DNA from: Actinokineospora spheciospongiae
GTDB taxonomy: Bacteria; Actinomycetota; Actinomycetes; Mycobacteriales; Pseudonocardiaceae
Direction of reading: 5' to 3'
DNA: 64,000 nt
NCBI RefSeq assembly: GCF_000564855.1
Contig: NZ_AYXG01000087.1
Coordinates: 1 to 64,000 of the forward strand
The notes below the pieces were generated by a model that saw nothing but the letters and a program-made list of their open reading frames with translations, did no database searches and was not told where the DNA came from. Made by a program: the position numbers and the translations under genes. Below are positions 26,517 through 32,526 of the stretch, one piece after another. How positions within the stretch are numbered: the first letter of the stretch is position 1; each line of letters begins with the position of its first letter.

Positions 26517-27356
26517 GTGGACAACATCTTCGACTTCCGGCTGACCTGGCAGCTCCTCTCGCTCGACTTCGTGCTCAGCGCCCTGCTCGTCGCCGCCGTC
26601 CTCGGCCTGCTCGCGGGCGTCCTCGGCCCGCTGATCGTCAGCCGCAACATGGCCTTCTCCGTCCACGGCACCTCCGAACTGGCCCTCACCGGCGGCGCCG
26701 CGGCCCTGCTCCTGGGCTGGGACGTCGGCAACGGCGCGCTCGCGGGCGCCATCGTCGCCGCCCTGGTCCTGGGCCTGCTGACCCGCCGCAGCTCCGAGTA
26801 CGACTCGGTCATCGGCGTCGTGCTGGCGTTCGGACTCGGCCTGGGCGTGCTGATGCTGTGGCTCTACAAGGGGCGCGCGGCCAACAAGTTCGGCCTGCTC
26901 ACCGGGCAGATCGTCGGCCAGGACTTCGCCAGCATGGCGTTGTTGACCGGGGCCGCGGTGGTGGTGCTGGCCGTGCTGGCCGTGGTCTACCGGCCGCTGC
27001 TGTTCGCCAGTGTCGATCCTGACGTGGCCCGCGCTCGGGGCGTTCCGACGACGCTGCTGGCGGTGGTGTTCGCCGTGCTGGTGGGCGTCGCCACGGCGCT
27101 GGGGGTCCGCACGGTCGGGTCGCTGCTGGTGCTGGCGCTGATGGTCACCCCCGCCGCGGCGGCGGCCCGGGTGACGGCCAGCCCGCTGCGCGCGACGGTG
27201 CTGGCGGTGGTGTTCGCGGAGGTGTCGGCGGTGGGCGGGATCGTGCTGTCGCTGGCCCCCGGCGCCCCGGTGAGCGCCTTCGTCACGGCGATCTCGTTCC
27301 TGATCTACCTGGTCTGCTGGCTCTTCGGCCGAGCCCGCCGCACCGCCCTGGCGTAG
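26517..27356 (+). CDS. znuB: Zinc/metal ABC transporter permease
   Basis: A 279-residue ABC-3 family permease with about eight hydrophobic helices. The segment GTSELALTGGAAALLLGW and later MVTPAAAAARVT are typical of ZnuB/MntB proteins. It completes the three-gene uptake system and is the last gene of the operon. GTG 26517 comes directly after the ATPase stop. It converges with the DUF445 gene, 17 bp apart. Confidence 0.9.
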   Translation: MDNIFDFRLTWQLLSLDFVLSALLVAAVLGLLAGVLGPLIVSRNMAFSVHGTSELALTGGAAALLLGWDVGNGALAGAIVAALVLGLLTRRSSEYDSVIGVVLAFGLGLGVLMLWLYKGRAANKFGLLTGQIVGQDFASMALLTGAAVVVLAVLAVVYRPLLFASVDPDVARARGVPTTLLAVVFAVLVGVATALGVRTVGSLLVLALMVTPAAAAARVTASPLRATVLAVVFAEVSAVGGIVLSLAPGAPVSAFVTAISFLIYLVCWLFGRARRTALA

Positions 27357-27373
27357 TCCGGCAGCCCACCAGC

Positions 27374-28594
27374 TCAGCCCAGGAGCAGCAGGACCTGGAG
27401 TTCGCCGACCAGGGCGCCGATGACGGCGCCCACGGCGATCAGCTTCCACTCGTCCTGGCGGAACGCCGGGCGCAGCAGGCCCTCGTACTCCACGCGGCTG
27501 AGCTGGTTCATCTTGGCCGCGATGGTGTTGCCGATGTCCAGGGCCTCGCGGGCGTAGGGCTCGGCGGCGAGGGCGGTGGCGCTCAGGTGGGTCATGGCCT
27601 TCTGGGCGGCGGCGACCTTGATCTCCTCGAACCGGTGCGAGCCGACCGCCACCGACACGAACGGCCGGGCCAGGCGCGCCTGCGCTTCGACGGAGTCGGC
27701 CACCAGCTTCTGGATCGAGGTCAGCAGCTTCTCCGACCGGGGGCCGCTGAGCACGCCCTCGACCAGGTTCGGGACCGTCATCACCTCGCGGGCGATCAGG
27801 TCGCCGTACTGGCGGGCGACCTCCACCCGCCTGCGCTGGAAGACGCCCTGGAAGCCGAGGACGGGGGAGCGGGGGAAGAAGACCAGCTTGATGGCCAGCC
27901 AGTCGGTGAACCAGCCGATGGCGGCGCCGAAGACGGGGAGGACCCAGGGCTGTTGGGTCAGGGCCCAGACGACGGTCTGGACGACGCCCAGGGCGAAGCC
28001 GAACCAGATGCCGCAGCGGGCGATGAACGCCATCTCCGGGCGGGAGATGTCGCGGACCAGGCGGACCAGGAGTGCCTTGTCGCGCTCCAGGGCGGTGACG
28101 GCGACCTGCTGGACGTCGAGGACCTCGCCGATGTTGCGGCGGACCTCGTCCATGACCCGGCGGACCAGGTCGGGGGTGCCCGCCTGGACCTGTTTGACCA
28201 CCAGGTCCTGGGCGAGGACCGGCAGCATCTCCCAGAGCTGGGGGTGGTGCTCCTCCAGCACCTCGCGGGCGATCCGGTCGACCGTGAGCAGCAGGGGGGT
28301 CTGGATCTGGCGGGCGATGGCGTCGGAGTCGAGGCGGGCGACGATCTCGGCGGGGTCGACCAGCTTGCCGGTGATGAGGTCGGCGGAGACCCGGATCATC
28401 CTGGCCGAGTTGCGCGGGACCACGCCCTGCCAGCCCAGGTAGGGCTCGGCGACGCCGATGAAGCGCAGCGGCCGGAACATCATCTCGATGGCCACCCGCT
28501 TGGTCACGTACCCGATGACCGCCGCGATGAACGGCATCGACGCGTAGACCGGCCAGTTGGCCGCGAAGCCGCCGAGGAACGCGTCGATGTTCAA
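27374..28594 (-). CDS. DUF445 family membrane protein, paralogue 1
   Basis: A 406-residue protein with hydrophobic segments near each end (YASMPFIAAVIGYVTKRVAIEMMF; KLIAVGAVIGALVGELQVLLLLG) and a middle pair (FGFALGVVQTVVWAL, VFGAAIGWFTDWLAIKLVFF). The function of DUF445 proteins is unknown. The start is TTG 28594; aligned with its paralogue at 30519-31748 the TTG falls exactly where that gene has GTG, so it is probably the native start. The IS607 element ends only about five bases upstream, between the start and its original ribosome binding site, which may lower or alter expression. Confidence 0.85.
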   Translation of the reverse strand: MNIDAFLGGFAANWPVYASMPFIAAVIGYVTKRVAIEMMFRPLRFIGVAEPYLGWQGVVPRNSARMIRVSADLITGKLVDPAEIVARLDSDAIARQIQTPLLLTVDRIAREVLEEHHPQLWEMLPVLAQDLVVKQVQAGTPDLVRRVMDEVRRNIGEVLDVQQVAVTALERDKALLVRLVRDISRPEMAFIARCGIWFGFALGVVQTVVWALTQQPWVLPVFGAAIGWFTDWLAIKLVFFPRSPVLGFQGVFQRRRVEVARQYGDLIAREVMTVPNLVEGVLSGPRSEKLLTSIQKLVADSVEAQARLARPFVSVAVGSHRFEEIKVAAAQKAMTHLSATALAAEPYAREALDIGNTIAAKMNQLSRVEYEGLLRPAFRQDEWKLIAVGAVIGALVGELQVLLLLG

Positions 28595-28599
28595 GCGGA

Positions 28600-28725
28600 C
28601 CCGTTCGATGAAATGCGACGTTCTGTCCCGATCATCGACTCACCATCTCGCGACGGTGAGGTTGAGCCGGAGGCTCTTCCCGAGGCGGTCCGACTGCGTC
28701 CGCGAGCGGACGTCTGACACCGGTT
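28600..28725 (-). ncRNA. Predicted omega RNA scaffold at the tnpB 3' end
   Basis: Four hairpins follow one another in the last ~110 bp of the element: stems at 28697-28703/28706-28712, 28664-28668/28672-28676, 28639-28644/28655-28660, and the terminal 28605-28611/28632-28638 that includes the tnpB stop codon. A structured RNA ending at the right end is the hallmark of TnpB omega RNA. The guide would be the next bases outside the element (28599 downwards). Boundaries of the RNA are an inference. Confidence 0.55.
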
Positions 28726-29936
28726 CCTTCGGGCTGCTCACGCACCAACTGTGCGCGGTCGGCTGCCAGAGCAGCCAGGTTGATCGCGGCGTTGACGTCC
28801 CGGTCCAGGACGATGCCGCACTCCACGCAGGCGTGGGTGCGCTCGGACAGGGCCAGCTTGGCTTTCGCCGCGCCGCATCCGGAGCACGTCTTGGAGGAGG
28901 CAAACCAGCGGTCGGCGACGATCAGCTCCGCGCCGGTGCGTTGGGTCTTGTAGGTGAGCTGGCGGCGGATCTCCGCCCAGCTCGCGTCGGCGATCCGCCG
29001 GGCCAGGCGCCGGTTCCGGATCATGTTCGCCACGGCCAGGTCCTCGATCGCGATCACGTCGAATTCGCGGACCAAGCGGGTCGTGAGTTGGTGGATGGCG
29101 TCGCGGCGCAGGTTGGCGACGCGTGTGTGGATACGGTCGGCGCGGGCGCGGGACTTGCGCCACCGATTGGACGGCTCGACGCGGGTGCGGCGGTCCGGTC
29201 CGCGGCGGCGGGCGCACGCCCGTTGGGTTCGGCGCAGCGCCTTCTGTGCCAGGTCAAGGTGTCGCGGGTTCGGCACCGTCTCACCGGTGGACAGCACCGC
29301 GAGGGACTTGATGCCCAGGTCGACACCGACAACCCGGCCTCGGGTCCGCTCAGTGGGCACGGGATCGGGCAATTCGACGGAGAAGCTGCCATGCCACCGT
29401 CCACGCTGGAAGCTCAACGTCACCGAGCGGACCCGAGCGGTCCCGGCCTCCACGTGGCGGGTGAGTTCGCGGGTCGACTCGTGGGTGCGGACCAAGCCGA
29501 TCACCGGGAGCCGGATGTGGCGACAGTCGGGGCCGAGGCCGAACGCGCCGGTGGTGAACCGGCAGGTCAGCCGCGCCCGGCGCTTGGACTTGAAACGGGG
29601 CATCCTCGCCCGACCGGCCTTGCGGTTGCCCAGCGCAGTCGACAGGTTCGCACACCCCGAGGCGTATGCCTCCTTGCTGTTCTCCGCCCACCAAGGCGCC
29701 ACCTGCTCCTTGGCGGCGTTCCACGCCTTGCGCAGGCTGTAGGCGGAGGTGTCGATCCATGGGGTGAGCTGCTCGCCGGTCAGGCCGTAGGTCTGCTCAG
29801 CCGAGCGCTGCGCCCAGTTCGCGAGTACCCGGGCCAGGCACCAGTTGTAGGCGACCCGCTGCGCACCGCAGTGCGAACGCATCGCGTCGGCCTGCTGATC
29901 GATCGGGTCCAAGGCGAACAGGTAGGCGCGGATCAT
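28632..29936 (-). CDS. tnpB: TnpB RNA-guided nuclease of the IS607 element
   Basis: A 434-residue TnpB, ancestor-type relative of Cas12. The RuvC residues Asp206 (VVGVDLGIKS), Glu299 (IAIEDLAV) and the acids of LDRD (378/380) are present, and the zinc-finger cysteines 351, 354, 370 and 373 are intact. The N-terminal DUF1225-like RNA-binding part (LTPWIDTSAYSLRKAWN) is complete. TnpB proteins use an omega RNA from the 3' end of their own gene to cut the empty donor site and help the element persist. It starts at ATG 29936, overlapping the recombinase stop. Confidence 0.93.
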   Translation of the reverse strand: MIRAYLFALDPIDQQADAMRSHCGAQRVAYNWCLARVLANWAQRSAEQTYGLTGEQLTPWIDTSAYSLRKAWNAAKEQVAPWWAENSKEAYASGCANLSTALGNRKAGRARMPRFKSKRRARLTCRFTTGAFGLGPDCRHIRLPVIGLVRTHESTRELTRHVEAGTARVRSVTLSFQRGRWHGSFSVELPDPVPTERTRGRVVGVDLGIKSLAVLSTGETVPNPRHLDLAQKALRRTQRACARRRGPDRRTRVEPSNRWRKSRARADRIHTRVANLRRDAIHQLTTRLVREFDVIAIEDLAVANMIRNRRLARRIADASWAEIRRQLTYKTQRTGAELIVADRWFASSKTCSGCGAAKAKLALSERTHACVECGIVLDRDVNAAINLAALAADRAQLVREQPEGTGVRRPLADAVGPPREEPPAQPHRREMVSR

Positions 29937-30442
29937 GATGGATCACCCGGTGCTTCGTCGGGCTCGACCTCGGTGAGGTCGCGGGCAAGGTCGTCAGCAG
30001 GTTCCGTCTCGTCGAGGACGATCACGGTTCGACCGTGGGCGGCCAAGGCTGCTTCCAGGTACTCGACCCCGAAGTGGGCCAGCCGGTCGCGGTGCTCGAC
30101 GACGATCGTGGACACCTTCGGGTCGCCAAGCAGCTTGCGCAGCTTTGTCCGCTGCCCGTTCAGGCCCGAGCCTATCTCGGTGACAGTGCGGTCGATGCGA
30201 AGCCCGCGCTGTGAACACATCGTGAGCACTCGTCCGGCCTGGCGTTCCAGGTCCGATTCCTGCTCCTGCGAGCTGACCCGGCAGTACGCCACCACCGCGC
30301 CGACGGTCTTGGCCGGTGGGTCGACCAGGATGGTGCCGGTCGGGAGCTGCCGGGCAGGCGCCGGCAGCGTCCCGGCGTGGAACCAGTTCAAGGCGGTTCG
30401 GTACGAAACGCCCTGCTCCTTGGCCCAGACACTCAGCTTCAC
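29933..30442 (-). CDS. IS607-type serine recombinase (TnpA)
   Basis: A 169-residue recombinase with an N-terminal MerR-like helix-turn-helix (about 1-45, MKLSVWAKEQGVSYRTALNW) and a serine recombinase catalytic domain starting VVAYCRVSSQEQ with the nucleophilic Ser, then EHRDRLAHFGVEYLEA. It catalyses excision and insertion of the element. It is somewhat shorter at the C-terminus than usual IS607 TnpA proteins (about 190 residues), because the frame ends as tnpB begins. It starts at GTG 30442. Confidence 0.88.
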   Translation of the reverse strand: MKLSVWAKEQGVSYRTALNWFHAGTLPAPARQLPTGTILVDPPAKTVGAVVAYCRVSSQEQESDLERQAGRVLTMCSQRGLRIDRTVTEIGSGLNGQRTKLRKLLGDPKVSTIVVEHRDRLAHFGVEYLEAALAAHGRTVIVLDETEPADDLARDLTEVEPDEAPGDPS

Positions 30443-30449
30443 CCATCCA

Positions 30450-30479
30450 TTATTACACAGAATGGCGTTTTATTACACA
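30450..30479. repeat. Direct repeats at the IS607 left end
   Basis: TTATTACACA is repeated exactly at 30450-30459 and 30470-30479, 20 bp apart, in the only strongly AT-rich patch of the neighbourhood. On the minus strand TAATAAT-like sequences stand just before the recombinase start, so the patch could be both promoter and recombinase binding site. Confidence 0.6.
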
Positions 30480-30518
30480 TTTACAAATAGCTGCCGACCT
30501 TTGTCAGTGGCTCCCAGG

Positions 30519-31748
30519 TCAGTGCAGCACCAGCAGCACTTGCAGTTCACCCACCAGGAACCCGATGACGGCGCCGACCGCGATGAGCTTCCACTCGTCC
30601 TGGCGGAACGCGGGCCGCAGCAGGCCCTCGTACTGGATCGGCGTCAGCGCCCGGATCTGGGCGACGATGGTGTCGCGGATGTTCAGGGCACCGGTGGCGT
30701 AGTCCTCGACGTGGCGGACGGTGTCGGGGATGCGGGCCACCGCCTTGTGCGCCGCGGCGCGCTTCATCTCCTGGTAGCGGCGGGAGCCGACGGCGGCGAC
30801 GACCAGGGGTTTGACCGTGCCCGCCTGGGCGTCGATGGAGCGGCGGACCTCGCGGTGGATCAGCTCGAACAGCCGGTCGGACTTCGGGCCGGTCAGCACG
30901 GCCTCCAGCACGTTGTGGACGGTCAGGACCTCCTTGGCGATGAGGTCGCCGTAGTCCTCGGCCACCTCGGACTTGCGCCGCTGGAACATGCCCTGCCAGG
31001 TGACCAGGCCCAGGAAGCGCTTGGGCTGCCGGGGGAAGAAGATCATTTTCAGGGCGAGCCAGTCGGTCAGCCAGCCGGTGAGGCCGCCGAAGACCGGCAT
31101 CACCCAGGCGCTCTTGGTCAGCGCCCACACCACGACCTGCACCAGCCCGATCACCAGGCCGAACCAGACGCCGGACCGGGCGATGAAGCGCATCTCCGGG
31201 GTGGCGGTGTCGCGGATCAGCCGGTTCAGCACGGCCTTGTCGCGGACCAGGTTGCGCACCGCCATGTCCTTGACGTCGAGCACCTGGTCGATGTCGGCCG
31301 CCAGCTCGCGCATCACCCGCTCGACCATCCGCGGCGCCTCGGCGCGGACCCTGGCCAGCAGCAGCGCCCTGGCCCGGTTCGGCAGCCGCTCCCACAGGTT
31401 CGGCTGGTACTCGCCGACCAGCTCGGTGGTGATCTCCTCGACCACCCGTTCGATGGGTTCCCGCAGCTCGGCCACCACGGCCTTGGGGTCGAGCCGGGAG
31501 AAGACCTCTTTCGGGTCGATCAGGTTCGTCGTCATCAGGTCCATGGCGACCGTGGCCATCCGCTCGGCGTTGGCCGGGATCACCCCCTGCCACCCCAGCC
31601 TGCCGATCCCGACGAACTCCAGCGGCTTGTACATCATCTCGATCGCCGCGCGCTTGGTGACGTACCCGATGACCGCCGCGATGAGCGGCATCGTCAGGTA
31701 CACGTGCCAGTGCTCGCCCATGTCGTCGGCGACGGCCCGCCAGTCCAC
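30519..31748 (-). CDS. DUF445 family membrane protein, paralogue 2
   Basis: A 409-residue paralogue of the gene at 27374-28594, with the same layout: N-terminal YLTMPLIAAVIGYVTKRAAIEMMY, central FGLVIGLVQVVVWAL and GWLTDWLALKMIFF, C-terminal KLIAVGAVIGFLVGELQVLLVLH. Function unknown. GTG 31748 follows GAGGGGG with seven bases between, so it was preferred over the longer open frame to 31844. The two paralogues were probably adjacent in one operon before the IS607 insertion. Confidence 0.85.
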   Translation of the reverse strand: MDWRAVADDMGEHWHVYLTMPLIAAVIGYVTKRAAIEMMYKPLEFVGIGRLGWQGVIPANAERMATVAMDLMTTNLIDPKEVFSRLDPKAVVAELREPIERVVEEITTELVGEYQPNLWERLPNRARALLLARVRAEAPRMVERVMRELAADIDQVLDVKDMAVRNLVRDKAVLNRLIRDTATPEMRFIARSGVWFGLVIGLVQVVVWALTKSAWVMPVFGGLTGWLTDWLALKMIFFPRQPKRFLGLVTWQGMFQRRKSEVAEDYGDLIAKEVLTVHNVLEAVLTGPKSDRLFELIHREVRRSIDAQAGTVKPLVVAAVGSRRYQEMKRAAAHKAVARIPDTVRHVEDYATGALNIRDTIVAQIRALTPIQYEGLLRPAFRQDEWKLIAVGAVIGFLVGELQVLLVLH

Positions 31749-31832
31749 CCGATCACCCCCTCGCCGCCGGGTCAGTTTCGCACGCCGCGGCACCGGCGCG
31801 GTGGAAGTGGACACAGGGGGAGCGGACACAGA

Positions 31833-31869
31833 GGACCGGCCCACCCCCGGGCGGGGGCGGGCCGGTCGG
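31833..31869 (-). terminator. Terminator after the VCBS-like gene
   Basis: GACCGGCCC with a following C-rich arm pairs with its complement GGGCCGGTC around GGGC, giving an imperfect stem of about 15 bp just downstream of the stop at 31882. It separates the VCBS-like gene from the DUF445 gene. Confidence 0.65.
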
Positions 31870-31881
31870 GGGTGTCGGGGG

Positions 31882-32526
31882 TCAGGCGTTGCAGGCGCTC
31901 GGGTTCACCACGAGCTGCGGGTTGTCGCCCTTGACGCCGAAGATCGGGATCTGCGAGCTGGGGGTGGCCACGCCGTTGGCGAAGCGGTAGGAGGCGAGGG
32001 TGCCGATGAAGTCCGGGTTCGGGGCCGAGCTGCTGGCCACCGCGAACAGGATGGTGAACTCGCGGGTGCCGAAGAACTCCTTGCAGGTGTAGCCGGAGCG
32101 GGCGCCCGGGCCGCCGCCCTCGAAGAAGCGCAGGGCCTGCCCGTCCGGGGTGGTGGCGACGCGGAAGCCGCCGGTGCCGAGGTCGACGATGTTGAAGGTC
32201 GTGGTGCCGTCGCCGGTGCTCTCGGTGACCAGGAGTTCGGCCTTGCGGTCCTTGTTGATGTCGACGACGCGGATCGGCTGGGCGCCGTCGGCCGAGGACA
32301 GCGGCAGGACCAGCGTGCGGGTCTGGCCGCCGACGGTGGCGCTGAGCAACTGCTCGGTGCCGTCGGTCTGGGTGGTGAGGGTGATGGTCTCGGCGGTGCC
32401 GTCACCGTTGAGGTCGGCCCGGGCGGTGACCGACGGGGCGGCGAGGGCGGGTACCGCGCCGACCAGGCTGATCAGCCCGGCGGCGATCAGCCCAGCGGTG
32501 GCGCGCGAGGTGGGAAGCATGCGCAC
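31882..32526 (-). CDS. Secreted VCBS/FG-GAP-like protein
   Basis: A 214-residue exported protein. The N-terminus is a Sec signal peptide ([20 protein letters not shown]). Two calcium-binding-like loops, ADLNGDGTAE and VDINKDRKAE, resemble the DxDxDG motifs of VCBS/FG-GAP repeats. The remaining part holds two cysteines that could form a disulphide. No catalytic motif was seen. The start was set at GTG 32526, seven bases after GGGAGAG, with ATG 32520 as the alternative. Confidence 0.75.
   Translation of the reverse strand: MRMLPTSRATAGLIAAGLISLVGAVPALAAPSVTARADLNGDGTAETITLTTQTDGTEQLLSATVGGQTRTLVLPLSSADGAQPIRVVDINKDRKAELLVTESTGDGTTTFNIVDLGTGGFRVATTPDGQALRFFEGGGPGARSGYTCKEFFGTREFTILFAVASSSAPNPDFIGTLASYRFANGVATPSSQIPIFGVKGDNPQLVVNPSACNA

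Follow-up and report, generated by a model that had tools for sequence, protein, structure and literature searches.

The window, i.e. the whole 64,000-nt stretch analysed, carries an IS607-family element located between two DUF445 genes. Read on the minus strand, DUF445 paralogue 2 (30519..31844) is followed by the left end of the element, TnpA, TnpB, the right end, and DUF445 paralogue 1 (27374..28594). Both DUF445 genes were identified by Pfam and are open frames, that of paralogue 1 specifying 406 amino acids from a TTG start codon at 28594. TnpA (29933..30442, minus strand) is an IS607 serine transposase of 169 amino acids, matching NCBIfam NF033518 with 154.8 bits (cut-off, 110), and TnpB (28632..29936, minus strand) is a predicted RNA-guided nuclease of 434 amino acids, matching NF038280 with 477.1 bits (cut-off, 350). 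These two genes lie between AAAGG (30502-30498) and TCCGC-TTG (28599-28592), which bears out the proposal of a first-pass annotation of this DNA that an IS607 insertion splits the ribosome-binding site of a DUF445 gene. A scan of positions 27300-32000 for sigma-70-type promoters gave none.

The element occupies positions 30499-28601 (minus strand). Its left end (30443..30497, minus strand) contains two TGTGTAATAA direct repeats (30479-30470 and 30459-30450) and adjoins AAAGG (30498..30502, minus strand), the host half of the split Shine-Dalgarno (SD) sequence and a putative TAM. The last GG of this motif (30499-30498) represents the left crossover core, and a second GG (28602-28601, minus strand) forms the right core and the element boundary; crossover at GG cores has been published for IS607 (PMC6188088 and PMC10711439). 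In BLASTN comparisons with related loci, the similarity to L035 (a Pseudonocardia MAG) and L045 (Nocardia sp. MH4), both of other genera, ends at 28601, directly after ...CATCGAACGG and ...CATGGAACGG, respectively, and the bases downstream of the end differ. Since these two relatives place the right end at 28601 (after ...GAACGG), the empty site would read AAAGG-GTCCGC-TTG, reconstructed as CTGACAAA-GG-GTCCGCTTG, and the predicted guide would begin at 28600. The AAAGG, TCCGC, and TTG of the earlier joining of the flanks are all seen, but the empty site has one G more than was claimed, and the guide start formerly set at 28599 moves by one base. An element-free allele of the same species would be expected to read ...CTGACAAAGGGTCCGCTTG, with the junction AAAGGGTCCGCTTG. 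No listed direct repeat connects the two junctions as a target duplication would. In L035, joining the flanks with the same GG reading reconstitutes an in-frame peptidase gene from its two halves, by our own reading. Further copies of the element in the 7.5 Mb genome were ruled out by DNA matching, which besides the element itself gave two DUF445 regions and one 32-base stretch, and by a TnpB search at E <= 1e-60, which found one place.

A homologue of DUF445 paralogue 1 is present in 15 of the 15 other genomes of the genus that were searched, and in 11 of them a second DUF445 gene lies directly upstream, as judged from our own reading of the positions. At 14 of these 15 loci, an SD with a pairing energy of -7.6 to -12.3 kcal/mol is found just before the start codon; the 15th locus gave no start codon, and the values for L008, L012, and L020 are the best of several candidate starts. 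In the window, the joined site pairs with the anti-SD at -6.5 kcal/mol, compared with -3.2 kcal/mol at the occupied junction. The strong SDs of the relatives, together with this difference, show that the element removed the SD of paralogue 1. The tnpB stop codon is situated 37 nt before the start codon of paralogue 1, so that some coupled translation may be possible.

The 3' end of tnpB overlaps a segment (28601..28770, minus strand) that is predicted to encode the scaffold of an omega RNA (reRNA) and ends in ...GAACGG. When the window sequence alone is considered, the folding energy of this terminal 170-nt segment of the element is -73.6 kcal/mol, at a z score of only -1.96, the final stem being TCGATGA/TCATCGA followed by the AACGG end. 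RNAalifold analysis of 39 right ends including that of the window (44 were aligned, and the divergent L039, L042, L043, L153, and L155 were left out) yielded 32 pairs, 24 of which exhibit changes on both sides. In this structure 95.6% of the cells are paired, and the covariation score is 0.452, compared with 0.139 upon shuffling (reached in 0 of 500 shuffles) and 0.025-0.080 in slid-structure controls. From a comparative point of view, the covariation lends good support to a functional right-end RNA. An assignment of this RNA to RAGATH-18 was rejected: the Rfam match of that family (RF03064), which was found in 18 of 20 other loci searched, is absent from 27000-32000 at E <= 1. The sole match in this region at that threshold is a chance-level microRNA family outside the element, and no intron family, as in an IStron (group I intron in the element), is among the matches.

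The predicted guide, GTCCGCTTGAACATCGACGC (28581..28600, minus strand), adjoins the right end. As the first-pass annotation had proposed, it spans the start codon and first codons of paralogue 1, a prediction in line with the structured, covarying RNA that directly adjoins the TTG start region. Transcripts of tnpB reading through the right end would be processed to the omega RNA, with the first ~16-20 nt of DUF445 paralogue 1, from 28600 downward, serving as the guide. Four matches with up to three mismatches were found in the 7.5 Mb genome, namely the guide's own site, its single exact occurrence, and three others with 3 mismatches each, while a control pattern gave three. Other genomic targets were discarded as candidates, there being none with fewer than 3 mismatches besides the guide's own site and the number of matches being no higher than in the control.

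TnpB was aligned to 8bf8, which we take to be ISDra2 TnpB, and to 8iaz. D206, E298, and D380 of the window protein align with D191, E278, and D361 of 8bf8, presumably its catalytic triad. As TnpB keeps the D/E/D residues, the cutting of element-free alleles would be its expected activity; the protein looks nuclease-competent, and such cutting, the expected behaviour of the family, is plausible here. The TnpB-RNA complex would cut alleles in which AAAGG precedes the guide match, i.e. the empty site, after which the element would be copied in by repair or its carriers would be kept. The occupied allele, in which AACGG precedes the guide match, would be ignored. TldR-type repressors are nuclease-dead TnpBs whose guides read promoters or gene start regions, and the window element could be imagined as a domesticated regulator of this kind, with TnpB and its guide binding and repressing the start of paralogue 1. 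A guide over the start codon and a full tnpB frame next to a truncated TnpA are what such a regulator would display. However, the nuclease residues, which are lost in TldR, are present in the window TnpB, the occupied allele offers AACGG instead of the AAAGG of the empty site, the guide search of the genome revealed no separate target locus with fewer than 3 mismatches, and no IS607 right end was found directly upstream of the DUF445 paralogue 1 start in the 15 relatives of the same genus. A TldR-like role is therefore very improbable, and the repression of paralogue 1 by TnpB, which had been suggested along with cutting, is not supported.

The C terminus of the window TnpA is 19-24 amino acids shorter than those of its relatives. 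The protein terminates in ...LTEVEPDEAPGDPS, whereas all 11 relatives compared continue beyond this point and contain VLxSMCAxLYGRR.... Relative to L130, the deletion in the gene (30442-29933) is a gap of ~72 nt just before tnpB, and the missing part would belong to the helix E region of IS607 TnpA, going by the description in PMC6188088. With this segment missing, the element may be incapable of moving on its own; self-excision has probably been lost, and the truncation suggests decay. The whole element might be a decaying remnant in which TnpA is broken, TnpB and the omega RNA are inactive, and paralogue 1 is merely parted from its SD. The loss of a segment present in 11 of 11 relatives, the single copy in the genome, and the broken tnpB frame of the close relative L045 agree with this explanation, but in the window tnpB is open over its full length, its product has the residues aligned with the catalytic triad, and the sequence preserves the RNA stems; we regard a fully inactive element as unlikely. 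With the window TnpA as the query, no TnpA was detected upstream of TnpB in 41 of 60 actinobacterial loci (e.g. L035, L036, and L117), the other 19 giving a match; therefore, many related elements may consist of TnpB and a right-end RNA only.

The location of the window's own subfamily relative to gene starts was analysed in 60 distinct actinobacterial right flanks including that of the window, the GG sites in the same flanks serving as the null; the right ends were selected through a motif with ACGG at its end, nine loci were dropped by a hand list, and L045 was restored with a hand-set end. A start codon followed by at least 80 open codons occurs 4-13 nt from the right end in 18 of 60 flanks, compared with 15.7% of the GG sites (P = 0.004), and in 17 of 59 when the window is left out (15.7%; P = 0.008). 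For ATG alone, the numbers are 7 of 60 and 3.4%. This excess is modest and only suggestive of an SD location. Clear cases by eye are L039 (a response-regulator-like start), L045 (VAEMSFDPSAL), and L132 (CCCAGG followed by TGAGGAATG). In the left flanks of 24 elements (the window and 23 relatives), which were read by eye, position -3 is not uniform, being A in 16, T in 5, and C in 3.

These numbers bear on the explanation that the element is an ordinary IS607 insertion at a random GG, with a coincidental SD location and a guide that covers the start codon without wider meaning. According to PMC6188088, IS607 targets share (G)GG but are otherwise unrelated in sequence, 42 of the 60 subfamily insertions are not situated 4-13 nt before an open start, and L035 lies inside a peptidase gene; on the other hand, the subfamily exceeds its null even without the window (P = 0.008).

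Elements with the RAGATH-18 RNA were used for a wider test of SD location. The TAMs of RAGATH-18 IS607 TnpBs are given as AGGAG (18 of 22 strains) and GAGGG (4 of 22) in PMC11061315, and both are SD-like sequences. Right-end patterns (ending in GCAG, ACAG, or ACGG) were run on 77 loci, and only 19 of the non-matching loci were looked at further. In the analysis as a whole, including the actinobacterial loci, manual placement or a special pattern was used for the right ends of L045, L052, L172, and L174. The final RAGATH-18 set comprised 35 distinct elements from viral contigs, each with a RAGATH-18 hit next to its right end. Excluded were L171 (sharing its site with L170), L175 (truncated), L184, L187, and L190 (right end unreadable), L290 (a RAGATH-18 hit beside a different right end, which duplicates L283), and L285, L288, L294, and L299 (no RF03064 hit), as well as 12 pattern matches that had been dropped by eye and were later found to be RF03064-negative. 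ATG, GTG, or TTG followed by at least 40 open codons is located 1-14 nt from the right end in 23 of the 35 elements, compared with 15.5% of [AG]G sites (P = 3e-11, binomial P values here treating sites as independent). The other controls in the same contigs gave 21.4% for AGG and 38.8% for AGGAG (P = 0.001). Among the 23 starts are several with GTG or TTG, and some of the starts may not be genuine. When only ATG followed by at least 80 codons was counted, 10 of 35 elements remained, against 5.1, 9.0, and 17.3% of [AG]G, AGG, and AGGAG sites, respectively, the last difference not being significant (P = 0.07).

Annotated records and natural empty sites provide further evidence. In 14 annotated regions, a CDS begins 6-10 nt after the right end in nine (eight distinct sites), including pflA behind pflB on an Agathobacter plasmid and the helicase gene of a phage; L309, L310, L315, L317, and L321 are without a CDS start at this distance. 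On the Agathobacter rectalis plasmid (L319, 662-2941), the IS607 element lies between pflB and pflA, its end being 7 nt ahead of the start of pflA. In all eight elements with a readable left end, the SD energies are -7.3 to -12.3 kcal/mol for the joined site and -2.2 to -5.1 kcal/mol for the occupied one, a result that favours SDs because the left-end regex requires a purine-rich GG motif. Three phage pairs were informative, and the empty site is an SD in all three. Phage St14.GH (occupied) compared with Stab22 gives the empty site ...GATGAAGAGG, then TGTATATTTAATG, with an annotated ribosome-binding site across the junction, although this feature bears the tag of the preceding gene. Golestan101-M compared with phiSA_BS1 gives ...GCGAAAGGAG, then TAGGAAAATG, with an identical left flank, and HM01 compared with Romulus gives ...AATAGAGGAT, then GGTATTATG, the left flank having been located with 4 mismatches in 18. 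The respective SD energies change from -7.1, -8.5, and -9.3 kcal/mol (empty) to -3.0, -4.2, and -3.9 kcal/mol (occupied). A fourth pair gave no information, the site being occupied in the relative as well. Taken together, the evidence that RAGATH-18 elements reside in SDs is strong when they are compared with G-rich sites in general and less so when they are compared with SD-like sites.

The 23 of 35 RAGATH-18 elements, the 9 of 14 annotated records, and the three of three phage pairs speak against a random GG, and a purely coincidental location, although a real possibility, is somewhat less probable than its opposite. Purine/G-rich motifs of the (A)GG(A)G type may be preferred in IS607 integration as well as in TnpB recognition; as such motifs are SD sequences, the SD location of the window element is probably not accidental. 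The reading that we prefer is that a single IS607-family element with a truncated TnpA was inserted via GG crossover into the SD of a DUF445 gene, that the guide of its omega RNA corresponds to the gene start, and that TnpB would cut the empty allele and spare the occupied one, the SD location probably being no accident; we assign this reading a probability of roughly 0.78.

Each of the 95 right ends has C at position -3, the sequence being ACGG, GCAG, or ACAG. This uniformity is largely built in because the right ends were chosen by motifs with these endings. The three natural phage pairs, in which the boundary is confirmed by an empty relative, are free of that selection, and all three fit C at -3. 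The structure of ISFba1 shows the protein reading the -3 pair (PMC11061315), which suggests that the right-end C spares the occupied copy. Alternatively, the C may be kept because the RNA scaffold needs these bases; C is also found at -3 in 3 of the 24 left flanks. We lean towards a general reading, held less firmly than that of the window element itself, in which RNA-guided transposons of the IS607 family use the SD as both attachment site and TAM, and the occupied copy is recognised as self by the C at -3 (right ends ACGG or GCAG; empty sites (A)GG or GGAG). With attachment in ribosome-binding sites, the guide RNAs would therefore read start codons.

The window element is a further IS607 case, in which the SD insertion is real and the guide prediction is well supported. 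It shares with ISXfa1 and IS1535 of the IS607 group a TnpA serine recombinase, TnpB, GG crossover, the lack of target duplication, and an RNA extending past the right end, predicted in the window element (PMC10711439 and PMC6188088), and differs from them in that its TnpA is without the C-terminal segment and the element lies in an SD; its guide is predicted and its TAM is putative. With ISFba1 (8IAZ; RAGATH-18 reRNA), it has in common an IS607 TnpB, a right-end RNA, a G-rich target preference, and the tendency of the elements to sit in SDs. However, the window RNA is not RAGATH-18, the window TnpB is only distantly related (132.9 bits against 8IAZ), and its residues aligned with the TAM-reading N121/N122 of ISFba1 are not asparagine, by our own reading with an inferred numbering offset of 3. 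ISDra2 (IS200/IS605) shares the TnpB fold and the aligned D/E/D residues, but has another transposase type and an AT-rich TAM (PMC11061315).

No report linking IS607 or TnpB with SDs or ribosome-binding sites was found in the open-licence literature, and 'Shine', 'ribosom', and 'start codon' are absent from the main text of PMC11061315. The DUF445 insertion is a single, modest case from a high-GC, actinomycete-like genome, and the wider pattern of IS607 elements in SD sequences is the interesting part. If IS607 TnpBs recognise SDs, target choice, guide content, and the effect on the host gene would follow one rule, and the published AGGAG and GAGGG TAMs would be explained. Many genes would then be landing sites, and guides that read conserved gene starts would make homing into homologous alleles easier. 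Each insertion would deprive the following gene of its ribosome-binding site, with predictable effects on host and phage genes.

In viral contigs, a search with P0002 yielded only four relatives. In the viral contig L242 (3001-4224), TnpB is 77% identical to the window TnpB over residues 1-408, the right end also reads TTTCATCGAACGG, and the first 11 nt of the predicted guide (GAGCACCTGAT) recur at 2699-2709, near the start of an upstream gene. In L187 (4230-4390) and L184 (4236-4325), three and two tandem right-end-like units, respectively, are found behind a RAGATH-18 TnpB. The units have a period of ~57 nt, and each contains CAACGRGCT followed by related but different sequence; they possibly constitute a small array of guide-bearing right ends.
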